DNA of 46,098 bases, taken from the IMG/VR virus record IMGVR_UViG_3300043777_000169, positions 1 to 46,098 of that record; one strand, given 5' to 3'. Both the position numbers and the translations under genes were made by a program. Positions 2,716-43,619 of this stretch are shown piece after piece. Numbering within the stretch: the stretch's first letter is position 1; every line of letters starts with the position of its first letter. The DNA comes from a virus. The notes below the pieces were generated by a model. It saw only the letters and a list, made by a program, of their open reading frames with translations. It was not told where the DNA came from and did no database searches.

Positions 2716-2908
2716 GGAATACCTCCACGTCGAACGCTCCAAGCAGCAACTCCAGAAGGACCTGACCTGTGCTTTTGACCGGATTAGCGAGCTCGAAAAC
2801 TCGCAGCGGACTCTCAAGGTCATGCTGTGGATCGCAGGCCTGTTCCTCAGCGGTATGGGGGCGACGGTGATCCTGTTGGGACAATTTGTCCTGGAGCGGC
2901 TGAAGTGA
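2681..2908 (+). CDS. small membrane protein with coiled-coil, 75 aa
   Basis: A 75-aa protein with a polar, probably coiled-coil first half (HVERSKQQLQKDL, then RISELENSQRTLKV) and one hydrophobic span near the C-terminus (MLWIAGLFLSGMGATVILLG) followed by a short positive tail. This layout resembles small phage membrane proteins such as XhlA-type holin partners, but it lies far from the lytic enzyme, so that role is uncertain. The start is GTG 2681. Its stop overlaps the start of the recombinase gene in a GTGA junction, implying coupled expression with the recombinase. Confidence 0.6.
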   Translation: MVTPRIPPDWREEYLHVERSKQQLQKDLTCAFDRISELENSQRTLKVMLWIAGLFLSGMGATVILLGQFVLERLK

Positions 2909-3456
2909 AACTCGCCCTCTACGCTCGCGTGTCAAAGCCGCAACGCGGCCAGCTTTCCGACGTCCAGGCGAAAGACCAGAATCCCGAAGTCCAGCTCCGC
3001 GAGCTGCGCGAGTGGTGCGAGAAAAACAAACACTCGATTGCATTCGAATACGTGGAGCGATTGAGCGGCAAGAACACAAAGCGCCCGCAGCTCCAGAAGT
3101 TAATGCGGGACGCGATCAAAGGACTGCGGGATATCGATGGCGTTCTGGTCTGGCGTCTCGATCGGTTCGGCCGATCGGTGCGCGACCTGCACAACCTGAT
3201 CGCCGAACTGGACGACGCGAAGATCGCCTTCATCTGCCTCAAAGACGGTTTCGACTTAACCACCAGCGGCGGCCGGGCGATGTTCGGGATGCTGGCCGTC
3301 TTTGCTGAGTTCGAGCGCAACGTGATCGCAGAACGGACTAAGGCCGGCCTTGCCCTGGCGCGAGCCGAGGGCCGAGTACCTGGCCGCAAGATCGATCCGC
3401 GCAAAGGACCGAGCCGCACAACCCGCTGGCGCGAACTGCAGCGGAAATCGGCCTAA
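2905..3456 (+). CDS. small serine recombinase (resolvase/invertase family)
   Basis: A 183-aa serine recombinase that would cut and rejoin DNA through a 5'-phosphoserine link. Visible are the catalytic ARVS motif (Ser10, Arg8), the RLDRFGRS motif with the conserved arginines near residues 72-79, and the long E helix FAEFERNVIAERTKAGLALA (about 133-152). After the GRVPGRK hinge only about 20 residues remain. The C-terminal helix-turn-helix is short and keeps only a recognition-helix-like piece (SRTTRWRELQRKS). The start is GTG 2905 in a GTGA overlap. It is the only integrase or resolvase candidate in the window, and a 26-bp dyad lies 7 bp after its stop. Confidence 0.9.
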   Translation: MKLALYARVSKPQRGQLSDVQAKDQNPEVQLRELREWCEKNKHSIAFEYVERLSGKNTKRPQLQKLMRDAIKGLRDIDGVLVWRLDRFGRSVRDLHNLIAELDDAKIAFICLKDGFDLTTSGGRAMFGMLAVFAEFERNVIAERTKAGLALARAEGRVPGRKIDPRKGPSRTTRWRELQRKSA

Positions 3457-3462
3457 TGACTT

Positions 3463-3488
3463 TGTTTCATATCGTCCGATGTGAAACA
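3463..3488. promoter_or_regulatory. 26-bp dyad, candidate recombinase crossover site
   Basis: Two 12-bp arms, TGTTTCATATCG and CGATGTGAAACA, are inverted repeats with 11 of 12 positions matching, separated by the 2-bp centre TC. This size and the 2-bp asymmetric core match the crossover sites used by serine invertases and resolvases. It sits just after the recombinase stop codon. There is no T-tract, so a terminator is less likely. The function is inferred. Confidence 0.5.
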
Positions 3489-3502
3489 TCAACAACTTAC
3501 GA

Positions 3503-3787
3503 GTGATTTCCCCGGAAAAACCCGCGATGAGCAGCTCAAACAATCAAAAAGAATCAAGCGAATTCAAGTATCTCGTTGCTCCGAAAAGACTTCTGCGTTC
3601 CGTGCTCGATCGGCTCGCAAATCGTAAGTCATTGGTTCTATTGATTGTTTCTGTTTCTGGCTCCTTGGTCGTCTTGAAAAAGGTTGATTTCCGGTTGAAA
3701 AACTTGAATTTCTGGGCTGGTTTTCAAGCGCTGTTTCCGCACATCTGCGACCTGGGCTTCGGCCTCTCTTTGAGCAATGGGTGTTGA
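3503..3787 (+). CDS. possible small membrane protein, 94 aa
   Basis: A frame from GTG 3503 (or ATG 3527, giving MSSSNNQKESSEFKYL) to 3787. It has a basic middle (APKRLLRSVLDRLANRK) and a hydrophobic stretch (SLVLLIVSVSGSLVVL). Base composition is clearly AT-richer than the surrounding genes, which could mean recent acquisition or a non-coding control region between the recombinase and the packaging genes. It overlaps the next gene by 11 bp. There is no good ribosome site. This call is tentative. Confidence 0.35.
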   Translation: MISPEKPAMSSSNNQKESSEFKYLVAPKRLLRSVLDRLANRKSLVLLIVSVSGSLVVLKKVDFRLKNLNFWAGFQALFPHICDLGFGLSLSNGC

Positions 3788-4283
3788 TCACGGTGGAGCG
3801 CGCGACGGGGCCGGCCGCAAGCCGAAGCCGAAGATCGAGCAACGCGCCGACAAGGGCATCGCGACGACCGTGCTCGCGATGGATGGGCCGCCCGAGCACA
3901 AGCGGAAGTGCCGCTGCAAGGTTTGCGAGGGCTCCCCGAAGAACTGCACCTGCGTTGAGCAGTGCGGCGATTGCGACGCGCTTCGCGAAAACTGCGAGTG
4001 CGAAAAGTATCGGCCGATCAAGCTCGCTTGCCGCGCCTGCCAACTGGTCGAGGATCACAAGGTTTGCCGTTGCGAAGTCTGCGGGTGGTGGGAGCAACTG
4101 ATGGCTCGCGACCTGAGGATCACGCATGACACACGGAAATATCTCACGGACCGACGCGACGGAAAGCCGGCGCAAGGCGTCTTCATCGGCGATACGCGCG
4201 AATCGGCAGTGGACGTAGACTTTGGCGACATCCTTATGCCAGCCGCCCCGAATCAGCCTGGAGCGCCTGGTAAACCCAACTGA
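3777..4283 (+). CDS. putative terminase small subunit, cysteine-rich
   Basis: A 168-aa protein whose N-terminus (HGGARDGAGRKPKPK) is the Gly/Arg start often seen in phage small terminase subunits, and which sits directly before the large terminase gene. It would recognise phage DNA and recruit the large subunit. Unusually, residues 45-102 carry 14 cysteines in repeated C-x-C and C-x2-C pairs (C45, C47, C50, C57, C59, C63, C66, C73, C75, C85, C88, C97, C99, C102). This suggests two or more zinc-binding knuckles rather than the usual helix-turn-helix. It overlaps the large-subunit gene by about 60 bp. The small-terminase assignment rests on position and the N-terminal motif. Confidence 0.6.
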   Translation: MGVDHGGARDGAGRKPKPKIEQRADKGIATTVLAMDGPPEHKRKCRCKVCEGSPKNCTCVEQCGDCDALRENCECEKYRPIKLACRACQLVEDHKVCRCEVCGWWEQLMARDLRITHDTRKYLTDRRDGKPAQGVFIGDTRESAVDVDFGDILMPAAPNQPGAPGKPN

Positions 4284-5778
4284 GAGACAACGTGAAGTTC
4301 TCGCAGCGATCGCAGAATTCGACTTCGTCTTGTTTGGCGGAGAAGCCGGCGGCGGCAAGAGCTACATCCTGCGCTGGTGGCTGGTGCTTTACCTGGTCTG
4401 GTGCTTCAAGGTTCTTGGTCTGCGCAACGTTGTCGTTGGCTTGTTCTGCGAAGACTATCCCAACCTGCAGGATCGCCAGGTCTCAAAGATCGAGCACGAG
4501 TTCCCAAAGTGGCTCGGCAGTCTCAGCTTCAAAAAAGTCTGGAACTTCCAGCTTCGTCCTGAGTTCGGCAGCGGCGTCATCGCGCTGCGCAACCTGGACA
4601 AGATGGAGAAATACAAGTCGGCTGAATTTGCGGCCGTCGCGCTCGATGAAGTCACGCTCAATCCGCTGCGAGTATTCAACTGGCTTCGGTTTCGTTTGCG
4701 CTGGCCAGGAATCGAGCGGCCGAAGTTCCTCGGTGGCACCAACCCCGGTGGCGTCGGGCATTCCTGGGTTAAAGCATACTGGCACGATCACAAACTGCCG
4801 CCGGAGCTGCAGCCGATCGCGGAACAGTTTGTCCTCATCAAAGCGCGGTCGGCCGATAACCCTCACCTCCCTACCGGCTACCACGACCGCCTCCTCACTC
4901 TCCCGCCTGACATGGCCCGCATGGTCGGCCGCGGCGACTGGAATGTTTTCACCGGACAATACTTCCCGCAGTTCGAAATCCCCCGCCACGTTCTCAAAGC
5001 GGCAGACGCAGTACACCAGATCAAGCCCTGGCACACGCGCTGGATCTCGGGCGACTGGGGCTATGAGCATCCAGCCTCTTTCCACTGGCACGCGAAGAAC
5101 GAACACAACCGCATCGTCACCTACGACGAGATGTGGGATCGCCGCGTAGGCGAATCAGAATGGGCCGAACGAATTACAGCGCGAGAGAAGCAGTGGAAAG
5201 ACAGATTCGGGACGGGCTATCGTCCACTAACCTCGTTTCCCTTCTCGTGGGATGCCGGCAAGCTCAGCCCGCGCTCGCACCCGAAGTATCCGAAATCGAT
5301 CGTGCAGTTGGTGAGCGATCACCTGGGGGCGGATGTTCCGAAGCCGCATCCAGCGGACTCCACGCCGGGATCGCGGATGTCCGGTTTTCGCCTGATGAGC
5401 CAGCTACTCGACGCGGATTTGTGGGGGATCTCGGATGCCTGCCCTAAATTAATTGAATGTCTGCCAACTCTTATCCGCGATGAAGACGACACCGAAACCC
5501 TGCTCAAAGTTAACTATGCCGAAGGCGACACAATCGGCGATGACCCGGCAGACTCCGCGCGTATGGGATTGCAGCACGAGTTCGGCAGCAGCGTGGTTCC
5601 TGTGAACGTGATGGCCGATCGCAGAGTCGCAGCTTACGCCGAAGCCCGCGGCCAGGAAGTAGAAGACCTGGACATCAACTCCGTCCACATGCTGCACCGC
5701 CAAGCCATGGTGCGAGAGCAACAGATGCGGAAGAAACGCAGGGGCGGATTAGGAAGAATCTGGAGGCCGAGGAGCTAA
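4222..5778 (+). CDS. terL: terminase large subunit
   Basis: The DNA-packaging ATPase and nuclease, about 518 aa. Walker A is GGEAGGGKSY (residues 39-48), Walker B is AVALDEVT with Asp142 and Glu143, and motif III is GGTNPGG (171-177). The nuclease half begins near ISGDWGYEHPAS (Asp278), the first acidic residue of an RNase H-like fold, with further acidic residues downstream (SWDAGKLSP). The TTG at 4222 is the longest start; the conserved part begins around NPTERQREVL, so the true start may be slightly later. It is followed by structural genes at short spacing. Confidence 0.93.
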   Translation: MATSLCQPPRISLERLVNPTERQREVLAAIAEFDFVLFGGEAGGGKSYILRWWLVLYLVWCFKVLGLRNVVVGLFCEDYPNLQDRQVSKIEHEFPKWLGSLSFKKVWNFQLRPEFGSGVIALRNLDKMEKYKSAEFAAVALDEVTLNPLRVFNWLRFRLRWPGIERPKFLGGTNPGGVGHSWVKAYWHDHKLPPELQPIAEQFVLIKARSADNPHLPTGYHDRLLTLPPDMARMVGRGDWNVFTGQYFPQFEIPRHVLKAADAVHQIKPWHTRWISGDWGYEHPASFHWHAKNEHNRIVTYDEMWDRRVGESEWAERITAREKQWKDRFGTGYRPLTSFPFSWDAGKLSPRSHPKYPKSIVQLVSDHLGADVPKPHPADSTPGSRMSGFRLMSQLLDADLWGISDACPKLIECLPTLIRDEDDTETLLKVNYAEGDTIGDDPADSARMGLQHEFGSSVVPVNVMADRRVAAYAEARGQEVEDLDINSVHMLHRQAMVREQQMRKKRRGGLGRIWRPRS

Positions 5779-10237: not shown

Positions 10238-12704
10238 CGAACTCTACAAAGCGAACAGCGCGGCCATGGAAAGTGCCGACGCAGCCGACAGCGAATCCGT
10301 TTCAACTGATGGGCTCGAAGACCGCGAAGAAGCGGAATGGGATGATCCACTCGCTGACGACGAAGAGCTCCAGAAAGCGTTTCTCTCGCTCTACCTCGAA
10401 TGCACCGCCGAAGACCGCTATCCGCGACTCATTGAAGTCAAGGACGTAAAGCAGGCGGAGAACTACTGGGCGGGGCGGCAGTACTGGTACTGGTCGGACA
10501 AAGATGAAACCTGGAAGCCCGCGCCCGGCGTCGGCGTTTCGCCGCTCGGGGATCTCGATTTCGACGAGATGCCGCGCTTCGAGTTCGTCACCAACATCTA
10601 CCAGGCGACCGGGCTCACGGAAATCGGAGCGGTCGCCGGAGCGCCGCCGCGCATCCGCTTCTTCCCGAAAGATGCCGACAATCCAGCAGACAGCGACACC
10701 GCCGAAGGCCGCACGAAGCTCAGTGAACTTATTGAGCGCTGGAATCCCCCGCAACTGTTGCTGCAGGAGGAGATGTACCACGCCTGGACGGGCGGCTTCA
10801 TCTGTCTCTGGACCCGATACGTATCGGACGGGGAAAAGATGGGCTTCGACAAGATTCCAGGACTCGGCAGCAAGGAATCGGATGTCGACTCGACGATTCA
10901 GTGTCCGCAATGTGGCTGGTCCGCCCCTGCTGCGGAAGCCGCACCACCCGTACCGTGCCCGCAGTGCGGGACGGGCCTGACCGACGAAAATGTTAGCGAG
11001 GAAGAACCGATCTCAGTTCCAGTCGATGGGCAAGATTCGGAAGTTCCGCGCGGGCGGCAGGTCATCGAAGCCTTCGGCGCACTCAACTGCAAACGTCCGC
11101 AACACACAAACCATCAGAGCGAGTGGCATTACTTCGCAATCGAGCGGGAGATCCACTATTCGATCTTGAGAGCTGATGCAGCCACCGACGAGATCGCAGA
11201 CAAGATTCGACCGGGGATGAACTTCGGCCCGGATGACGCTTTCGAACGGAATGCGCGCCTGGCTGTAGCAGAGAACGCCAAGCTGCCCACCCAGACCGGG
11301 GCGAAACAATCGACGCTCGTCACCCACGCCGACGTCTGGTTCCGGCCTTCGGCTTACTGGATGATGAAGGACAAAGCGAAACGCAAACGGGCACAAGAGA
11401 AGTTCCCGCGTGGCCTTCACGTGCAGTTCGCCGGAAACACTTTCTACAAATCCGAAATCCAGTCGATGGACGATTGCATTCGCTGCACCCACGCGATGCC
11501 AGGACGCGGCCAGCATCGGCCCGCCGTCGGCACCTCGATGATTTCAGTGCAGGACCGCTTCAACACCTTCGCCAACATCTCAGCAGAAACTTACGAATAC
11601 GGAATACCGATCACCTACCGGGCTTCCGACACATTCGCACAGGAAGCCAATGACGACCAGCGGGCAGCTCCCGGCCTTGAAGTAGAAGTTGCTCTGCAAC
11701 CAGGGACCGATATCCGCACGCGGCTGATGCAGACGCGAGCGGATTCCGTTTCGCCCGATATGCAGAAGCACATGATGGATCTTTTCGGCCCGGTGACGCA
11801 GTACCTCTCCGGCGCGTTCCCGGCGCTGAGTGGCGCTACGGGCGCGGACCAACAGCCGAACACGCTCGGCCAGCAATCGATGCAGCGCGACCAGGCCATG
11901 GGCCGCATGGGTGTGTTTTACGTGAACCTGAAGCAGGCTCACGCAGACATCATGACGCTCGCCTGCCGCGACTATGAATCACACTGCGATGGCGTGGTGA
12001 CAATCCCAGTCCTCGGCGACTCTGGCGACTTTGAGAATGAATCGGTGGACATCACCGCGCTCGAAGGCGATGCCGTAGCCTATCCCGAAGGCGATGAGAA
12101 CTTCCCCGAACTCTGGAACCAGCAACGCGCGACCGCAATGCAGCTTGGCGACTCTCCCCAGGGCGCGGCGCTGCTGCAGGACATGTCGAACCGCAAACTC
12201 TTTGCGCGGCTCACGGGCATTCCTGATCTAAAAGTTCCCGGCGTCGAAGGGTGGGAATTCCAACTGCGCGAAATCAACGATCTGACCAAGGTTCCCGAGG
12301 GCGACCAGCTCTTAGCCGGAATCGCTCCGGACGTATCGGTCGAGAAATACCAGGAACATCCGATTCACGTGGCCTGCTGCAAATGGTGGCTGAACTCACA
12401 GCGCGGCCAGAAGATGAAGCGCTCGAATCCGATCGGCTTTCAGGCTGTGGTCGAGCACCTGGCGCAGCACGAAGCAATGATCCCAGCTCCGCAGCCCGAC
12501 GAGAAGCCGCTGAGTGAGACTTTCAACATCGCCTTCAAGGACATGCCGCCTGAAGCGCAGGCGCAGGCGCTCGCGAAACTCGGGATTCAGGTCACACCGC
12601 AAGACTTCATTCAAAAACTCGCACTCGATCAAGCAAGCAAAGCGCCCAAAGTGGTTCCATCCGGCCCTGGCGCAGCCGATCAAAGGATGCAACCCCATGC
12701 TTAA
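10230..12704 (+). CDS. portal protein, 824 aa, with zinc-ribbon-like insert
   Basis: A large portal protein of the size seen in podoviruses. It forms the ring at the head vertex through which DNA enters and leaves. The start is GTG 10230. An acidic N-terminal tail is followed by a typical portal body (YWAGRQYWYW, NIYQATGLTEIGAVAGAPPRI, and QEEMYHAWTGGFICLW near residue 190). Around residues 229-252 there is an insert with IQCPQCGWS...PCPQCGTG, two C-x2-C pairs typical of a zinc ribbon, which is unusual for a portal. The C-terminal third is helical (stem and barrel). It follows the short basic proteins and is followed by scaffold and capsid genes, as expected for a head module. Confidence 0.85.
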   Translation: MADELYKANSAAMESADAADSESVSTDGLEDREEAEWDDPLADDEELQKAFLSLYLECTAEDRYPRLIEVKDVKQAENYWAGRQYWYWSDKDETWKPAPGVGVSPLGDLDFDEMPRFEFVTNIYQATGLTEIGAVAGAPPRIRFFPKDADNPADSDTAEGRTKLSELIERWNPPQLLLQEEMYHAWTGGFICLWTRYVSDGEKMGFDKIPGLGSKESDVDSTIQCPQCGWSAPAAEAAPPVPCPQCGTGLTDENVSEEEPISVPVDGQDSEVPRGRQVIEAFGALNCKRPQHTNHQSEWHYFAIEREIHYSILRADAATDEIADKIRPGMNFGPDDAFERNARLAVAENAKLPTQTGAKQSTLVTHADVWFRPSAYWMMKDKAKRKRAQEKFPRGLHVQFAGNTFYKSEIQSMDDCIRCTHAMPGRGQHRPAVGTSMISVQDRFNTFANISAETYEYGIPITYRASDTFAQEANDDQRAAPGLEVEVALQPGTDIRTRLMQTRADSVSPDMQKHMMDLFGPVTQYLSGAFPALSGATGADQQPNTLGQQSMQRDQAMGRMGVFYVNLKQAHADIMTLACRDYESHCDGVVTIPVLGDSGDFENESVDITALEGDAVAYPEGDENFPELWNQQRATAMQLGDSPQGAALLQDMSNRKLFARLTGIPDLKVPGVEGWEFQLREINDLTKVPEGDQLLAGIAPDVSVEKYQEHPIHVACCKWWLNSQRGQKMKRSNPIGFQAVVEHLAQHEAMIPAPQPDEKPLSETFNIAFKDMPPEAQAQALAKLGIQVTPQDFIQKLALDQASKAPKVVPSGPGAADQRMQPHA

Positions 12705-14118
12705 ATATCTGTTGCACTATCTGCTATTTGGAATGACGATGTTTGCGGCGGCCGATGTTGCGGTCGGAGGAGACGGAGATGGCGCAGCACCGGCTGACGC
12801 TGGCGGATCTGGTGGAAATGCAGGCGCGGGTGACGCTGGCGCGGATCTCGGAGGGGACGATGGATCAGGACCCACTGTTGAAGGAGATATTGACGGGCTG
12901 GGCGAACTGGATTCTGAACCAGCCGAAGGCGAACAACGCCAGCAACAGCCCGAAATAGACAAGGAAACCGGCGACCTCAAAGGCCTCGTCTCAAAGCGCC
13001 TCCTCGCCCTCAAGAAAGAAGCGCCGGAACTCACCGGCATCTTCCAGAAATACCCCAAAGTCCAGGAGCAAGTAGAAGCAGCCTTCCGGCGCGACATGGC
13101 TTACCGGGAACTTTACCCCACCGTGGCCGAAGCGCGGCAGATGCGGGAGCAATTCCCGAACGGCATGGCAGACGTCGAGCAACTCCTGACCGACGTCGGC
13201 GAAGTCGAGCAGCTCGACCAGCAGTTCTACCAGAAAGATGCGCAGGGAAACTACACTGGGCACGCGGCCATCGTCCAGAACATGTTTCAGGATGACCGGG
13301 AAGCGGCCGTGTCGCTCTTCCGCACGCTGCCGAAAGAGTGGGCGCGGCTTGATCCCGATAGCTACAACGAAGTAATGGGGCAAGTGGTTGGAGCCACACT
13401 GCAGCGCGCCGAATTGCCCGAATGGATTACAGAATTGCGGGATGCGGCGAAGACTGCCAAGCAGGACGGGCTCGCCGCATCTCTCGACAAGATGCTGCGC
13501 TGGGCTTCCGGTTTCAATAAGCGCAAAGCCGAACCGAGCGAAGACGAACAGCGGTTGCAAGGTCAGCGCGAACAGTTCAAACGCGAAACCGACGAGCGCA
13601 AGAAACAGGATTTCACCCGCTTCAGCACGAACTTCTTCGCCGAGTCGCAAAAGCAGCAGACCGCCATCGTGCGCAAGCATCCCGCCGTAGCCGAGATGCT
13701 GCAGACCAAAGCGCTTTCCGAGCAGAAGAAAAACGAAATCATCACCAAGATCCAGACCCGAATCCGCGAGCACGTCAAAACCTCGCGAGCTTACATGACC
13801 AAACTGCGCGCCGCCTACAACTCCGGCAATCTGCAGGAGTCTTTGACGCTTGAAAAAGCGCAGTGGAGCTACCCCTGGGTCCTGAATAAATTCGTCCGGG
13901 CCGTTCTGGCGGAAGAAACGCCAACTCTGGTCCGGCAAAACCGGGAGCGCACGCGCGGCGCCGCGCAGCAGCTGCGAAGACCCGAACAGCGCCAACAGCA
14001 GCAGCGCAGAGAAGAACGCACCGGGCCTTATCAAGAGGGCAAGGTGTGGCACAAGAAAGACGGCAGTCGCTTCACCACCGCGGAAATTCTTCGCGGCTTG
14101 CATCTTCAGAATTCCTAG
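12697..14118 (+). CDS. scaffold-like protein, 473 aa
   Basis: A long helical, highly charged protein between portal and capsid, fitting a scaffold that guides procapsid assembly. The start at ATG 12697 overlaps the portal stop; ATG 12733 is an alternative. Residues about 25-88 are low-complexity Gly/Asp/Ala (GGDGDGAAPADAGGSGG), followed by long helices (KGLVSKRLLALKKEAPELTG, KYPKVQEQVEAAFRRDMAYR) and a Gln/Arg-rich C-terminal stretch that could bind the capsid protein. In the low-complexity part this frame has poor GC at third codon positions, and another frame there looks better coding (see 12779-12958). Confidence 0.75.
   Translation: MLKYLLHYLLFGMTMFAAADVAVGGDGDGAAPADAGGSGGNAGAGDAGADLGGDDGSGPTVEGDIDGLGELDSEPAEGEQRQQQPEIDKETGDLKGLVSKRLLALKKEAPELTGIFQKYPKVQEQVEAAFRRDMAYRELYPTVAEARQMREQFPNGMADVEQLLTDVGEVEQLDQQFYQKDAQGNYTGHAAIVQNMFQDDREAAVSLFRTLPKEWARLDPDSYNEVMGQVVGATLQRAELPEWITELRDAAKTAKQDGLAASLDKMLRWASGFNKRKAEPSEDEQRLQGQREQFKRETDERKKQDFTRFSTNFFAESQKQQTAIVRKHPAVAEMLQTKALSEQKKNEIITKIQTRIREHVKTSRAYMTKLRAAYNSGNLQESLTLEKAQWSYPWVLNKFVRAVLAEETPTLVRQNRERTRGAAQQLRRPEQRQQQQRREERTGPYQEGKVWHKKDGSRFTTAEILRGLHLQNS
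12779..12958 (+). CDS. candidate gene nested inside the scaffold gene, 59 aa
   Basis: In the +1 frame relative to the scaffold gene, ATG 12779 follows a GGAGG site by 8 nt and opens a 59-aa frame to TAG 12958. The protein (MAQHRLTLADLVEMQARVTL, then a helix containing LKEILTGWANWIL) looks like a normal amphipathic helical protein. By hand count 52 of its 59 codons end in G or C, against about 24 of 60 in the scaffold frame over the same bases. This supports real coding or an older coding frame. There is no known family. Confidence 0.45.
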   Translation: MAQHRLTLADLVEMQARVTLARISEGTMDQDPLLKEILTGWANWILNQPKANNASNSPK

Positions 14119-14225
14119 TTCCTCAGTAGTTCCCGCAGACCAAAACGGCGAAGTTCCTCCGGGTTGCCGCCGTCCCGCATGTCTCCGGCACGTAAGACCC
14201 AAATCAGCCTCACGGAGATATTGCC

Positions 14226-15479
14226 ATGCCAGCACAAAATCTAAATTCAGTTGCACTGCAACTAGAAAAGGTGCGGAAGACGGTGCCGACCGCCTACGAG
14301 CAGGAAGTGATTCTGCTCGATCTGATCGACAAGCGCGGCGACGTGGTCGACGCCTCTACCCGCAACATTCGCCTGCCGCAGCTTATCCGGCCGGGCGGGA
14401 AATTCAGCCAAGGAACCGCGGACTTCGACGATATGGGGCGCGGCTCTGGATCGACCTGGGATGTGGGGACGCTTTCCACTCTGCATTTCCGGTTTGCCTT
14501 TGAAATCTCAAAGCTCGCCGAGTACGCCTCGAAGGGCAACGACAAGGCGGTTGAAGATGTGGCGGTGCGCGAAGTCGAGGAAGCGCTCAAGATGTTCAAG
14601 CGCGCTCTCGATTGCGTCTACAACACCAACGGGACCGGGCAGCTCGACACCATTCAGTCGATCTCTGGGACTGTCCTCACCGTCACCAACCCCAACCTGT
14701 TCTATTTCAACCAGGACATCCAGATCTATCCTTCTGGCCTGGCTTCGGCGTCGCGCGGTCTGGCGACAGTAGTAGCAGTCGATCCGCTCCTCAAGACGAT
14801 CACCCTGAACGCTCTGCCGGCCGGAACCTCGGCGACGGACGCTCTGGTAATCAATATCTCCCAGGGCGCGGGCGGAGCAAACCCGGTCTCGCTCGAAGGG
14901 CTGCTCTACAACCACGTGGATTCGCAGTCGGGCACCTGGAACAACCTGGCGCGCTCGACCTACCCAGAAGCCCTGAAAACGCCGCACGTCGCAGCGGGTG
15001 GGGTCACGATCACCCCGGCACTGCGCCGTCTCGGAGAAAACAAGCTCCGCAGGGTGCTCGGTGTGAATTTCGAAGAGCCGATGATGGCCTACATGAACGT
15101 AGACCAGGAAGCGGCCTGGGAAAACGCCGGAATCACCGTAACCACGATCATCCAGAACCAGCTAAAGGGTGACGAGTCGCAGGACATGTTGAAGCGGAAG
15201 CCGCCGGGAACCTTCGGTGGAATTCCGATCAAAACCTCGATCCACGCCACCATCCAGCGCATTGACGTGATCCTGCTCAAGCACTGGGGCCGGGGCATCA
15301 CGAAAGAAATCGACATGTTCGAACTGGGAGGCCAGACTACCTATCAGGTATACGGCGCTTCCGGCGGTCTCGAAGCTGGCTATCTGCAGTACTTCGACAC
15401 CGTGTTCAATGTGTTCATGGATCAGCCCAGGTATGGAATTTTCTGGGACGGTCTGGCGCTTCCGGTTGGCGGCTACTAA
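14226..15479 (+). CDS. major capsid protein, 417 aa
   Basis: The coat protein that builds the head. It lies directly after the scaffold and has an ATG start with a GGAG site 8 nt upstream. It opens with an N-terminal helix (VALQLEKVRKTVPTAYEQEV), then a strand-rich core. An inserted small beta domain spans about residues 140-215 (ISGTVLTVTNPNLFYFNQDI). A typical capsid C-terminal region follows (VLGVNFEEPMMAYMNVDQEA, RYGIFWDGLALPVGG). The 107-bp gap before it probably holds the leader that lets this gene be highly expressed. Length and context fit a HK97-fold coat protein. Confidence 0.88.
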   Translation: MPAQNLNSVALQLEKVRKTVPTAYEQEVILLDLIDKRGDVVDASTRNIRLPQLIRPGGKFSQGTADFDDMGRGSGSTWDVGTLSTLHFRFAFEISKLAEYASKGNDKAVEDVAVREVEEALKMFKRALDCVYNTNGTGQLDTIQSISGTVLTVTNPNLFYFNQDIQIYPSGLASASRGLATVVAVDPLLKTITLNALPAGTSATDALVINISQGAGGANPVSLEGLLYNHVDSQSGTWNNLARSTYPEALKTPHVAAGGVTITPALRRLGENKLRRVLGVNFEEPMMAYMNVDQEAAWENAGITVTTIIQNQLKGDESQDMLKRKPPGTFGGIPIKTSIHATIQRIDVILLKHWGRGITKEIDMFELGGQTTYQVYGASGGLEAGYLQYFDTVFNVFMDQPRYGIFWDGLALPVGGY

Positions 15480-38872: not shown

Positions 38873-38920
38873 TCGTGCTAGCACGTGCTAGCACGATTCC
38901 CAGTGTCGCACTGGTGTCAA
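38873..38920 (-). promoter_or_regulatory. leftward promoter with 24-bp perfect palindrome
   Basis: A perfect 24-bp palindrome (38873-38896) is made of two adjacent copies of the self-complementary GTGCTAGCAC with flanking C/G and T/A. Next to it is a second dyad, CCAGTG-TCG-CACTGG (38900-38914), and a perfect minus-strand TTGACA at 38920-38915. A -10 box 17 bp on would fall on the edge of the palindrome (ATCGTG, poor). This fits a repressor site covering the promoter of the zinc-ribbon gene at 38856. Confidence 0.6.
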
Positions 38921-41411: not shown

Positions 41412-41418
41412 AAACATT

Positions 41419-41446
41419 CGGCGCGAGAGCTAGAACTCTCGCGCCG
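41419..41446 (+). terminator. 11-bp perfect hairpin
   Basis: Perfect 11-bp arms CGGCGCGAGAG and CTCTCGCGCCG around the 6-nt loop CTAGAA, 8 bp after the preceding stop. No T-tract follows, so termination would be factor-assisted or partial; it may also protect the message end. Confidence 0.55.
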
Positions 41447-41468
41447 GGGACAACTTCGAGTAACCAGC

Positions 41469-42580: not shown

Positions 42581-42816
42581 AGAAGCGGCCCTTCAATTTC
42601 GAGTGGACGTTCTCGTCGCGAGTGCGCGAACGGAAATGCGTGAGCTGCTCGACGCTCACGCCGGGATTTCTCACCCTGGCCAACGGCATTCGTAAGCCAC
42701 TTTGCTCAACCTGTTTTTTGTCTCAAATGAAACCTTCCGCGCTATCGGCCCGGAAGAAGCCCACGTCTGCGCCTCCGTGCGAGGCCGCGAGATCGGAGCA
42801 ACTTCGCCTATGTTGA
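42577..42816 (+). CDS. small zinc-ribbon protein, 79 aa
   Basis: From ATG 42577 in an ATGA overlap. A basic start ([20 protein letters not shown]) leads into [12 protein letters not shown] and [10 protein letters not shown], two C-x2-C pairs in a short ribbon, followed by a Ser/Pro/Ala tail. Overlaps the next gene by 7 bp. Unknown role. Confidence 0.65.
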
Positions 42817-43619
42817 CCTTCCATGGAAAGCAGCAACTCAAAGACGAGCGCATCGCTCAGGTGCGCGCGCATCGCCTGGCCGATCAACTGGTGAAGGGCC
42901 AGTACTGGCAAGACGGCAAAGGCTGCGCTGTCGGTTGCACCATTCACAGCAGCGATCACCGGGCCTACGAGACCGAACTCGGGATCCCGGTCGAGTTGGC
43001 CTATCTCGAAGACAACATCTTCGAGAACCTCTCGAACGGCAAAGCCATGATGTGGCCTGAACGTTTTCTGCAGGCGATCCCGGTGGGCGTCGACCTGCGT
43101 GCGACGCACATTAACAAACGCCTGGTGCTCGCCTGGCTCACCGACGAGACGCGAGGCCTGGTGCCGCGCATTCGAAACGAAGAGACGAAGAAGTTGGCGC
43201 TCGAGCTCGTCGATTTTTTGAAACAAGGGATAGCTGAGCCGTCGCCAACGCTTCCGCCAGCCCTTCTTAGGGATCTCGCCGATCGCGCCTATCTCGCCGA
43301 TCTCGCCTATCGCGCCTATCTCGCCGATCTCGCCTATCGCGCCTATCTCGCCGATCTCGCCGATCTCGCCTATCGCGCCGATCTCGCCGATCTCGCCTAT
43401 CTCGCCTATCGCGCCGATCTCGCCTATCGCGCCGATCTCGCCGATCTCGCCGATCTCGCCTATCGCGCCGATCTCGCCGATCTCGCCTATCTCGCCTATC
43501 GCGCCGATCGCGCCGATCTCGCCTATCGCGCCTATCTCGCCGAAATATTTTTGGAAGTGCTCGCCGCTAGCGCGCCGAGCACTTCCCCGTCGCCGGCAGC
43601 AACGCGAGGAGCCAAGTGA
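42810..43619 (+). CDS. phage protein with tripeptide-repeat tail, 269 aa
   Basis: ATG 42810 begins [20 protein letters not shown]. The first 150 residues match a recurrent phage protein type recognised by [20 protein letters not shown] and a following [14 protein letters not shown]. Members often end in long simple repeats of unknown purpose (for example WSAA-type). Here residues 155-244 are 30 tripeptides of the form (D or Y)(L or R)A, then a short helix and a Ser/Pro/Ala end. The Cys/His cluster in [13 protein letters not shown] may bind metal. Function of the family is unknown. The repeat may act as a length-variable spacer. Confidence 0.75.
43272..43541 (+). repeat. 30 x 9-bp coding minisatellite
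   Basis: Thirty tandem units of (G/T)AT-C(T/G)C-GCC without a single other change. Only two positions vary, giving DLA (14), YRA (8), YLA (6) and DRA (2). Units 10-16 and 20-26 are identical in order, a 63-bp copy shifted by 90 bp. Total absence of synonymous change points to recent or continuing expansion. Confidence 0.95.

Follow-up and report, generated by a model that had tools for sequence, protein, structure and literature searches.

A conserved cassette of a small serine recombinase gene, its own crossover site and a putative DNA-bending region in a family of soil phages

The analysed window is one linear viral contig from IMG/VR with a length of 46,098 bp. It harbors a gene for a small serine recombinase that is followed by a dyad of the crossover-site type, an accessory arm and the terminase region (Table 1). 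The recombinase matches the Pfam Resolvase family (PF00239) with an E-value of 4.9e-41 and 140.6 bits (cut-off 23.3), and its PHROG match is a DNA invertase. The catalytic domain is complete. An earlier sequence-only reading had described the catalytic motifs as intact. This is confirmed for YARVS...RLDRFGRS, in which the alignment columns Y6, A7, R8, V9, S10, L85, R87, G89, R90, and S91 are invariant. The protein is a serine recombinase by membership and would likely work like a resolvase.

Table 1. Features of the recombinase locus, in positions of the window.
Feature	Coordinates	Strand	Details
Small serine recombinase	2905..3456	+	GTG start, 183 aa; Pfam Resolvase, PHROG 125, alignment, AF2 model
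Crossover site (site I)	3463..3488	+	12-bp arms, centre TC at 3475-3476
IHF-like motif 1, ATCAACAACTTA	3488..3499	+	directly after right arm, +14 to +25 from crossover
Accessory arm	3500..3624	+	A/T tracts phased ~11 bp; tested over +28 to +98 and +50 to +120
IHF-like motif 2, TAAGTCATTGGT	3625..3636	+	motif 1 in inverted orientation
Phage-specific inverted repeat around motif 2	left arm 3538..3547 (AAACAATCAA), right arm 3641-3650	+	10/10 complementary
Next ORF, candidate small terminase subunit	3777..4283	+	position only
Terminase large subunit	4222..5778	+	PHROG 979, E 3.7e-12

A difference compared to the usual small serine recombinases is found in the C-terminus, which is shortened in the alignment, as the sequence-only reading had suspected. 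The AF2 model, which was built from 15 sequences (mean pLDDT 81, pTM 0.65), takes on the order of catalytic domain, long helix (residues 121-154), linker, and one C-terminal helix (residues 171-182). The usual three-helix C-terminal helix-turn-helix is absent, no Pfam HTH match is present in the recombinase, and the C-terminal DNA-binding part consists of the one helix GPSRTTRWRELQRKSA. Alignment and model thus support a reduced DNA-binding part, with the binding itself being predicted. Among solved structures, the model comes closest to the catalytic domains of serine integrases and to resolvases (5cy1, 1gdt), and the best sequence relatives, both in phages and among solved structures, are the Gin/Hin invertases. 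A large serine integrase is ruled out by the length of 183 aa and by the presence of the Resolvase domain only, without the long C-terminal part that contains the recombinase and zinc-ribbon domains.

The dyad TGTTTCATATCG-TC-CGATGTGAAACA starts after a gap of 6 bp from the recombinase stop codon. The sequence-only reading had given this gap as seven bases, and its description of the 12-bp arms, their complementarity at 11/12 positions and the centre TC was accurate. A dyad of this kind is by itself only modestly unusual. When dyads are defined by 12-bp arms with at most one mismatch and a 2-bp gap, first-order Markov shuffles lead to 0.125 expected dyads per 46 kb, and the window has three. 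The dyad goes beyond chance because it is conserved in 31/31 relatives and because sequence similarity ends at the cassette borders. No second copy is present in the window.

In the half-site, the outer five and the inner bases are symmetric, and the middle pairs are broken but A/T-rich. Judged by its sequence, this layout is expected for serine recombinase sites rather than for a hairpin, as outer and inner symmetry with an asymmetric A/T middle points to a protein that reads the DNA via the major and minor groove, and an RNA hairpin would differ. An RNA hairpin or terminator was also considered and rejected, since the middle pairs are lost, the sequences of the relatives fold no better than shuffles, and a terminator is lacking. 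Matches of the dyad element to Rfam did not exceed chance.

Relatives were sought in viral contigs with the window protein and subsequently with an alignment of 15 relatives. The search yielded a clade of 31 further loci with 53-90% identity to the window protein, below which the identity falls sharply to about 41% or less, short fragments aside. At all 31 loci, a dyad and the motif ATCAAYRACTTA follow soon after the recombinase stop codon in the same order and orientation, with TTTCAACAACTTA taking the place of ATCAAYRACTTA in two of them. The motif starts ~30-77 bp beyond the stop, and the inner dyad pattern CG-NN-CG (or near) is kept throughout (31/31). The exact dyad had no matches in viral contigs because the arms drift. 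The element is absent from all 27 outgroup recombinases examined, nearly all of which end in the usual helix-turn-helix. A DNA search with the element only returned clade members, all with the recombinase, and ~10 matches without dyad or recombinase, a number in line with the chance estimated for so loose a pattern.

In pairs of unrelated phages, nucleotide similarity extends from the recombinase start codon (-570) to ~26 bp past the crossover, and the unit is therefore the cassette of gene and site. A soil-phage family carries this cassette of ~0.6 kb, in which the recombinase gene is directly followed by its crossover site and a putative DNA-bending region, and the conserved pairing is real. 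It bears out the idea, already put forward from the sequence, of a small serine recombinase beside its own crossover site. A loss of the dyad in relatives that retain the recombinase, which would have counted against this idea, was not seen at any of the 31 loci. The site had likewise been seen as a single copy, and this holds for the window and each of 21 records (21/21). No second or inverted site is found in 25 contigs, in which the second-best match reaches 13-16 of 22 positions, the site's own complement aside.

The accessory half of the site, ~160 bp with two IHF-like motifs and phased A/T tracts, had been overlooked in the earlier reading. When 25 non-identical members are aligned on the crossover, motif 1 (ATCAAYRACTTA) is near-invariant at +14 to +25. 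It matches the IHF consensus WATCAANNNNTTR (PMC10380432), with the first W being the exception in most members, and would on this basis be bound by IHF. Past motif 1 the sequences are unalignable, and A/T-rich positions recur at approximately +33, +45, +56, +66, +78, and +89. The coherent amplitude at 11 bp is 6.27, compared to 0.76 ± 0.41 in control sets of random regions from the same contigs, none of which reached as high a value (0/2000).

The inverted motif YAAGTSRTTGRT with at most two mismatches is present in 15/25 members, compared to 0.9 in random contig regions. It lies 54, 75, 150-152, or 161-162 bp downstream. These offsets fit multiples of 10.8 bp; in 1.8% of trials, a set of five randomly drawn offsets fitted equally well, which leaves a helical spacing of motif 2 suggestive only. 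In the window, motif 2 is surrounded by inverted repeats of the AATCAA type (3538-3547 and 3641-3650, 3542-3562/3636-3656). Several terminase-type relatives have repeats of other sequence there (AAACCTTC or TTTGATT type), and class II members (see below) are devoid of them.

It can be distinguished between three classes of arms, namely class I (TGTTTCATATCG, window included), class II (GTTTCC-type), and class III (GGTGC). A C-terminus of the form GPS[RK]TT goes with classes I and II and GPSRWT with class III, and this agreement holds in 25/25 non-identical members. The matched pairs, in which a GTTTC-type outer arm is combined with SRTT and GGTGC with SRWT, suggest a simple specificity code. 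A single-helix reading in place of a helix-turn-helix, together with an IHF-type bend, would open the prospect of compact recombinases with defined sites. When the tree is calculated with the C-terminal segment left out, well supported branches force at least two changes for the SRWT/GGTGC state. The covariation of C-terminus and arm may partly be due to co-inheritance of linked neighbouring DNA. The recombinase gene of L101/G016 and G018 appears to be a natural chimera in which one clade's catalytic part is joined to a class II C-terminus and site.

Two of the terminase families, c3 and c7, are both found in combination with class I as well as class III arms. G010 and G011 have the same arms and different terminases, and G000 and G020 belong to one terminase family and have different arms; judged from these sequences, the arms track the recombinase and not the terminase family. 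In class II, the cassette precedes the head module and no terminase is located there. In class II members, a degenerate 25-bp dyad with its centre 31-40 bp upstream may be a second site for the recombinase; class I has no clear equivalent of it.

The centre dinucleotide varies among members (TC, AC, GT, AG, GG, and TT) and is palindromic in none. L063 differs from G020/G012 at six out of 10,737 positions, and two of these differences fall on the crossover centre (L063 3603-3604), where AC is exchanged for GT as an exact flip. The flip is not claimed as a mark of active recombination, as small inversions in palindromes give the same change.

The ORF at the position of a small terminase subunit has no Pfam or PHROG match. 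The window also encodes an FkbM-type methyltransferase (979-1767, Pfam E 5.2e-16), and a protein with a long run of short LADLAYRA-like repeats is located at 42702-43619. The early region contains two more strong palindromes at 38873-38896 and 41418-41447 (one perfect 12+12, one 11/12, small gap). The sampled early modules contain recombination genes for YqaJ-type exonucleases and for an Erf-type annealing protein. In 21 contigs, which are fragments or of uncertain completeness, no tyrosine integrase (PF00589), HTH_3 repressor (PF01381), or ParA (PF13614) was found. The late region of G018 carries a near-tandem duplication of 1,061 bp with 99.7% identity (12583-13643 and 13708-14768, oriented). 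Near-complete contigs break at differing places, which fits circular or permuted genomes, a genome form that we infer from linear IMG/VR records. A scan of ~85,000 host genomes contained no clade member, with the qualification that the scan required exact matches to 8-residue peptides from the window protein and could miss distant members. Its matches came from Bacilli only and showed ~39-48% identity over most of the domain, with a few short fragments higher. A search centred on the Bacillota had no match. Going by gene style, the host group may be guessed to be the Acidobacteriota.

On balance, although narrowly, the cassette is probably a Sin/res-like system in which one copy of the phage's own site recombines with another. 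Both multimer resolution and a Cre-like circularisation would fit as the role of this reaction. The reaction would start with the binding of a recombinase dimer to the 24-26 bp dyad. By analogy with gamma-delta and Hin, the single C-terminal helix would read the outer GTTTC while the linker passes over the A/T-rich middle, and cleavage would occur at the 2-bp centre. A host IHF-type protein would bend the DNA at the adjoining ATCAAYRACTTA motif. Together with the inverted motif 2, the phased A/T tracts would wrap ~60-150 bp on this side into a defined complex. Subsequently, two wrapped complexes would synapse and exchange strands, which would convert circular multimers to monomers or circularise a redundant linear genome as done by P1 Cre-lox. 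The pairing of gene and site with its conservation, the correspondence of arms and C-terminus, the phased accessory DNA, and the single site per contig are observed. Binding, the identity of IHF, recombination, and the self-with-self role are steps that we infer, and a product of recombination was not seen.

The presence of a single site per genome and a one-sided complexity like that of res make a reaction between copies of the own site the most likely one. A varying and never palindromic centre favours identical own-site partners, as the centre would be free to drift provided that it is asymmetric. It speaks against the own-site role that class I shows no evident second site for a recombinase dimer, as is present in Sin and Tn3 res, and that phages which package from concatemers might gain nothing from resolution. 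Partition genes that would make an episomal prophage likely were not found.

The sequence-only reading had left the choice between an attachment site for integration and a site for multimer resolution, and resolution is the part that fits better. An integrase role, in which an IHF-bent, lambda-like complex attP would recombine with a simple host attB, is the main rival. It is unlikely, even though the gene adjoins its own single site, the accessory arm with its IHF-like motifs is one-sided, and no tyrosine-type integrase was found in the 21 contigs. Resolution is preferred because the sites are intact at 32/32 loci with no hybrid attL among them, because the clade is missing from the matches of the host scan (the likely host group being outside the searches), and because no lysogeny markers such as an HTH_3 repressor were found. 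The centre, moreover, differs even between near-identical phages, which, except in the case of symmetric arms, would break the match to an unchanging attB. That a minimal single-helix serine recombinase serves as integrase on a lambda-like, IHF-wrapped attP is rather doubtful. If true, serine chemistry would take place within an IHF-built intasome, a combination that was not found in the literature searched.

The cassette could also serve mainly in gene exchange, in which recombination between sites of one type on co-infecting phages would exchange their early and late modules, or gene and site could spread together as a selfish unit. It is found next to different terminase families and at the border of a module, and G016 combines the N-terminal part of one clade with the C-terminus and site of another; general phage mosaicism, however, yields the same picture. 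With flanks that are unbroken at the crossover, similarity that goes on ~26 bp beyond it, and no empty/occupied pair found, this role is improbable. Phased A/T DNA is common at origins, and lambda cos contains a dyad (cosN) plus an IHF site. As the element precedes the terminase in most members, it might accordingly have nothing to do with the recombinase and act in packaging (cos/pac), as a replication origin, or in regulation. This is quite improbable given arms that track the recombinase clade and not the terminase (G010/G011, G000/G020), a class II element that precedes a head module where no terminase is located, near-complete contigs that end elsewhere, and the lack of a terminator-like hairpin. 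A Gin/Hin-type DNA invertase for the switching of tail genes would need two inverted sites, and the 25 contigs contain no second or inverted one; in view also of the reduced C-terminus, such a function is highly improbable, even if the nearest annotated relatives are named DNA invertases.

The preferred own-site system shares features with several known systems. Like Gin and Hin, its closest sequence relatives, it uses a 26-bp crossover site, with the difference being that it has a single site per genome, no recognised Fis enhancer, and no full helix-turn-helix. P1 Cre-loxP, a functional analogue, is a phage-encoded recombinase with one site per genome, for which a role in circularisation and dimer resolution has been suggested. 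The site of the cassette is likewise single in each genome and, in most members, close to packaging genes. Cre differs in its tyrosine chemistry, as opposed to serine, and lox is without an accessory arm. With the Tn3/gamma-delta resolvases and their res sites, the cassette has in common the catalytic fold, a one-sided complex site of >100 bp, and half-sites with outer recognition and an A/T middle. In contrast to these, class I lacks sequence-readable sites II and III, there is no transposon, and bending is apparently left to an IHF-type protein.

The closest parallel in layout is Sin/res (and the beta recombinase), with a small serine recombinase, a 2-bp centre, and a bend site that abuts site I on one side. 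A site I abutted by a site for an architectural protein is recognisable in 31/31 loci at the level of sequence. Different from Sin/res, the cassette has a native, near-invariant IHF-type motif, an inverted second motif farther out, a phased arm, and a helix-turn-helix cut to one helix, and in class I a second site for a recombinase dimer is not clearly present. It is not classed as a Sin-type res because no site II is evident for the window's class I. The literature searched, with partial coverage, contained no native IHF-dependent serine resolvase and no phage with such a cassette. In Sin res, site I is followed by a spacer bent by HU, for which IHF can substitute if its site is engineered there (PMC2428073). 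The cassette would thus be a natural serine recombination site that apparently has an IHF-type bend built in, whereas Sin used IHF only by engineering (PMC2428073).
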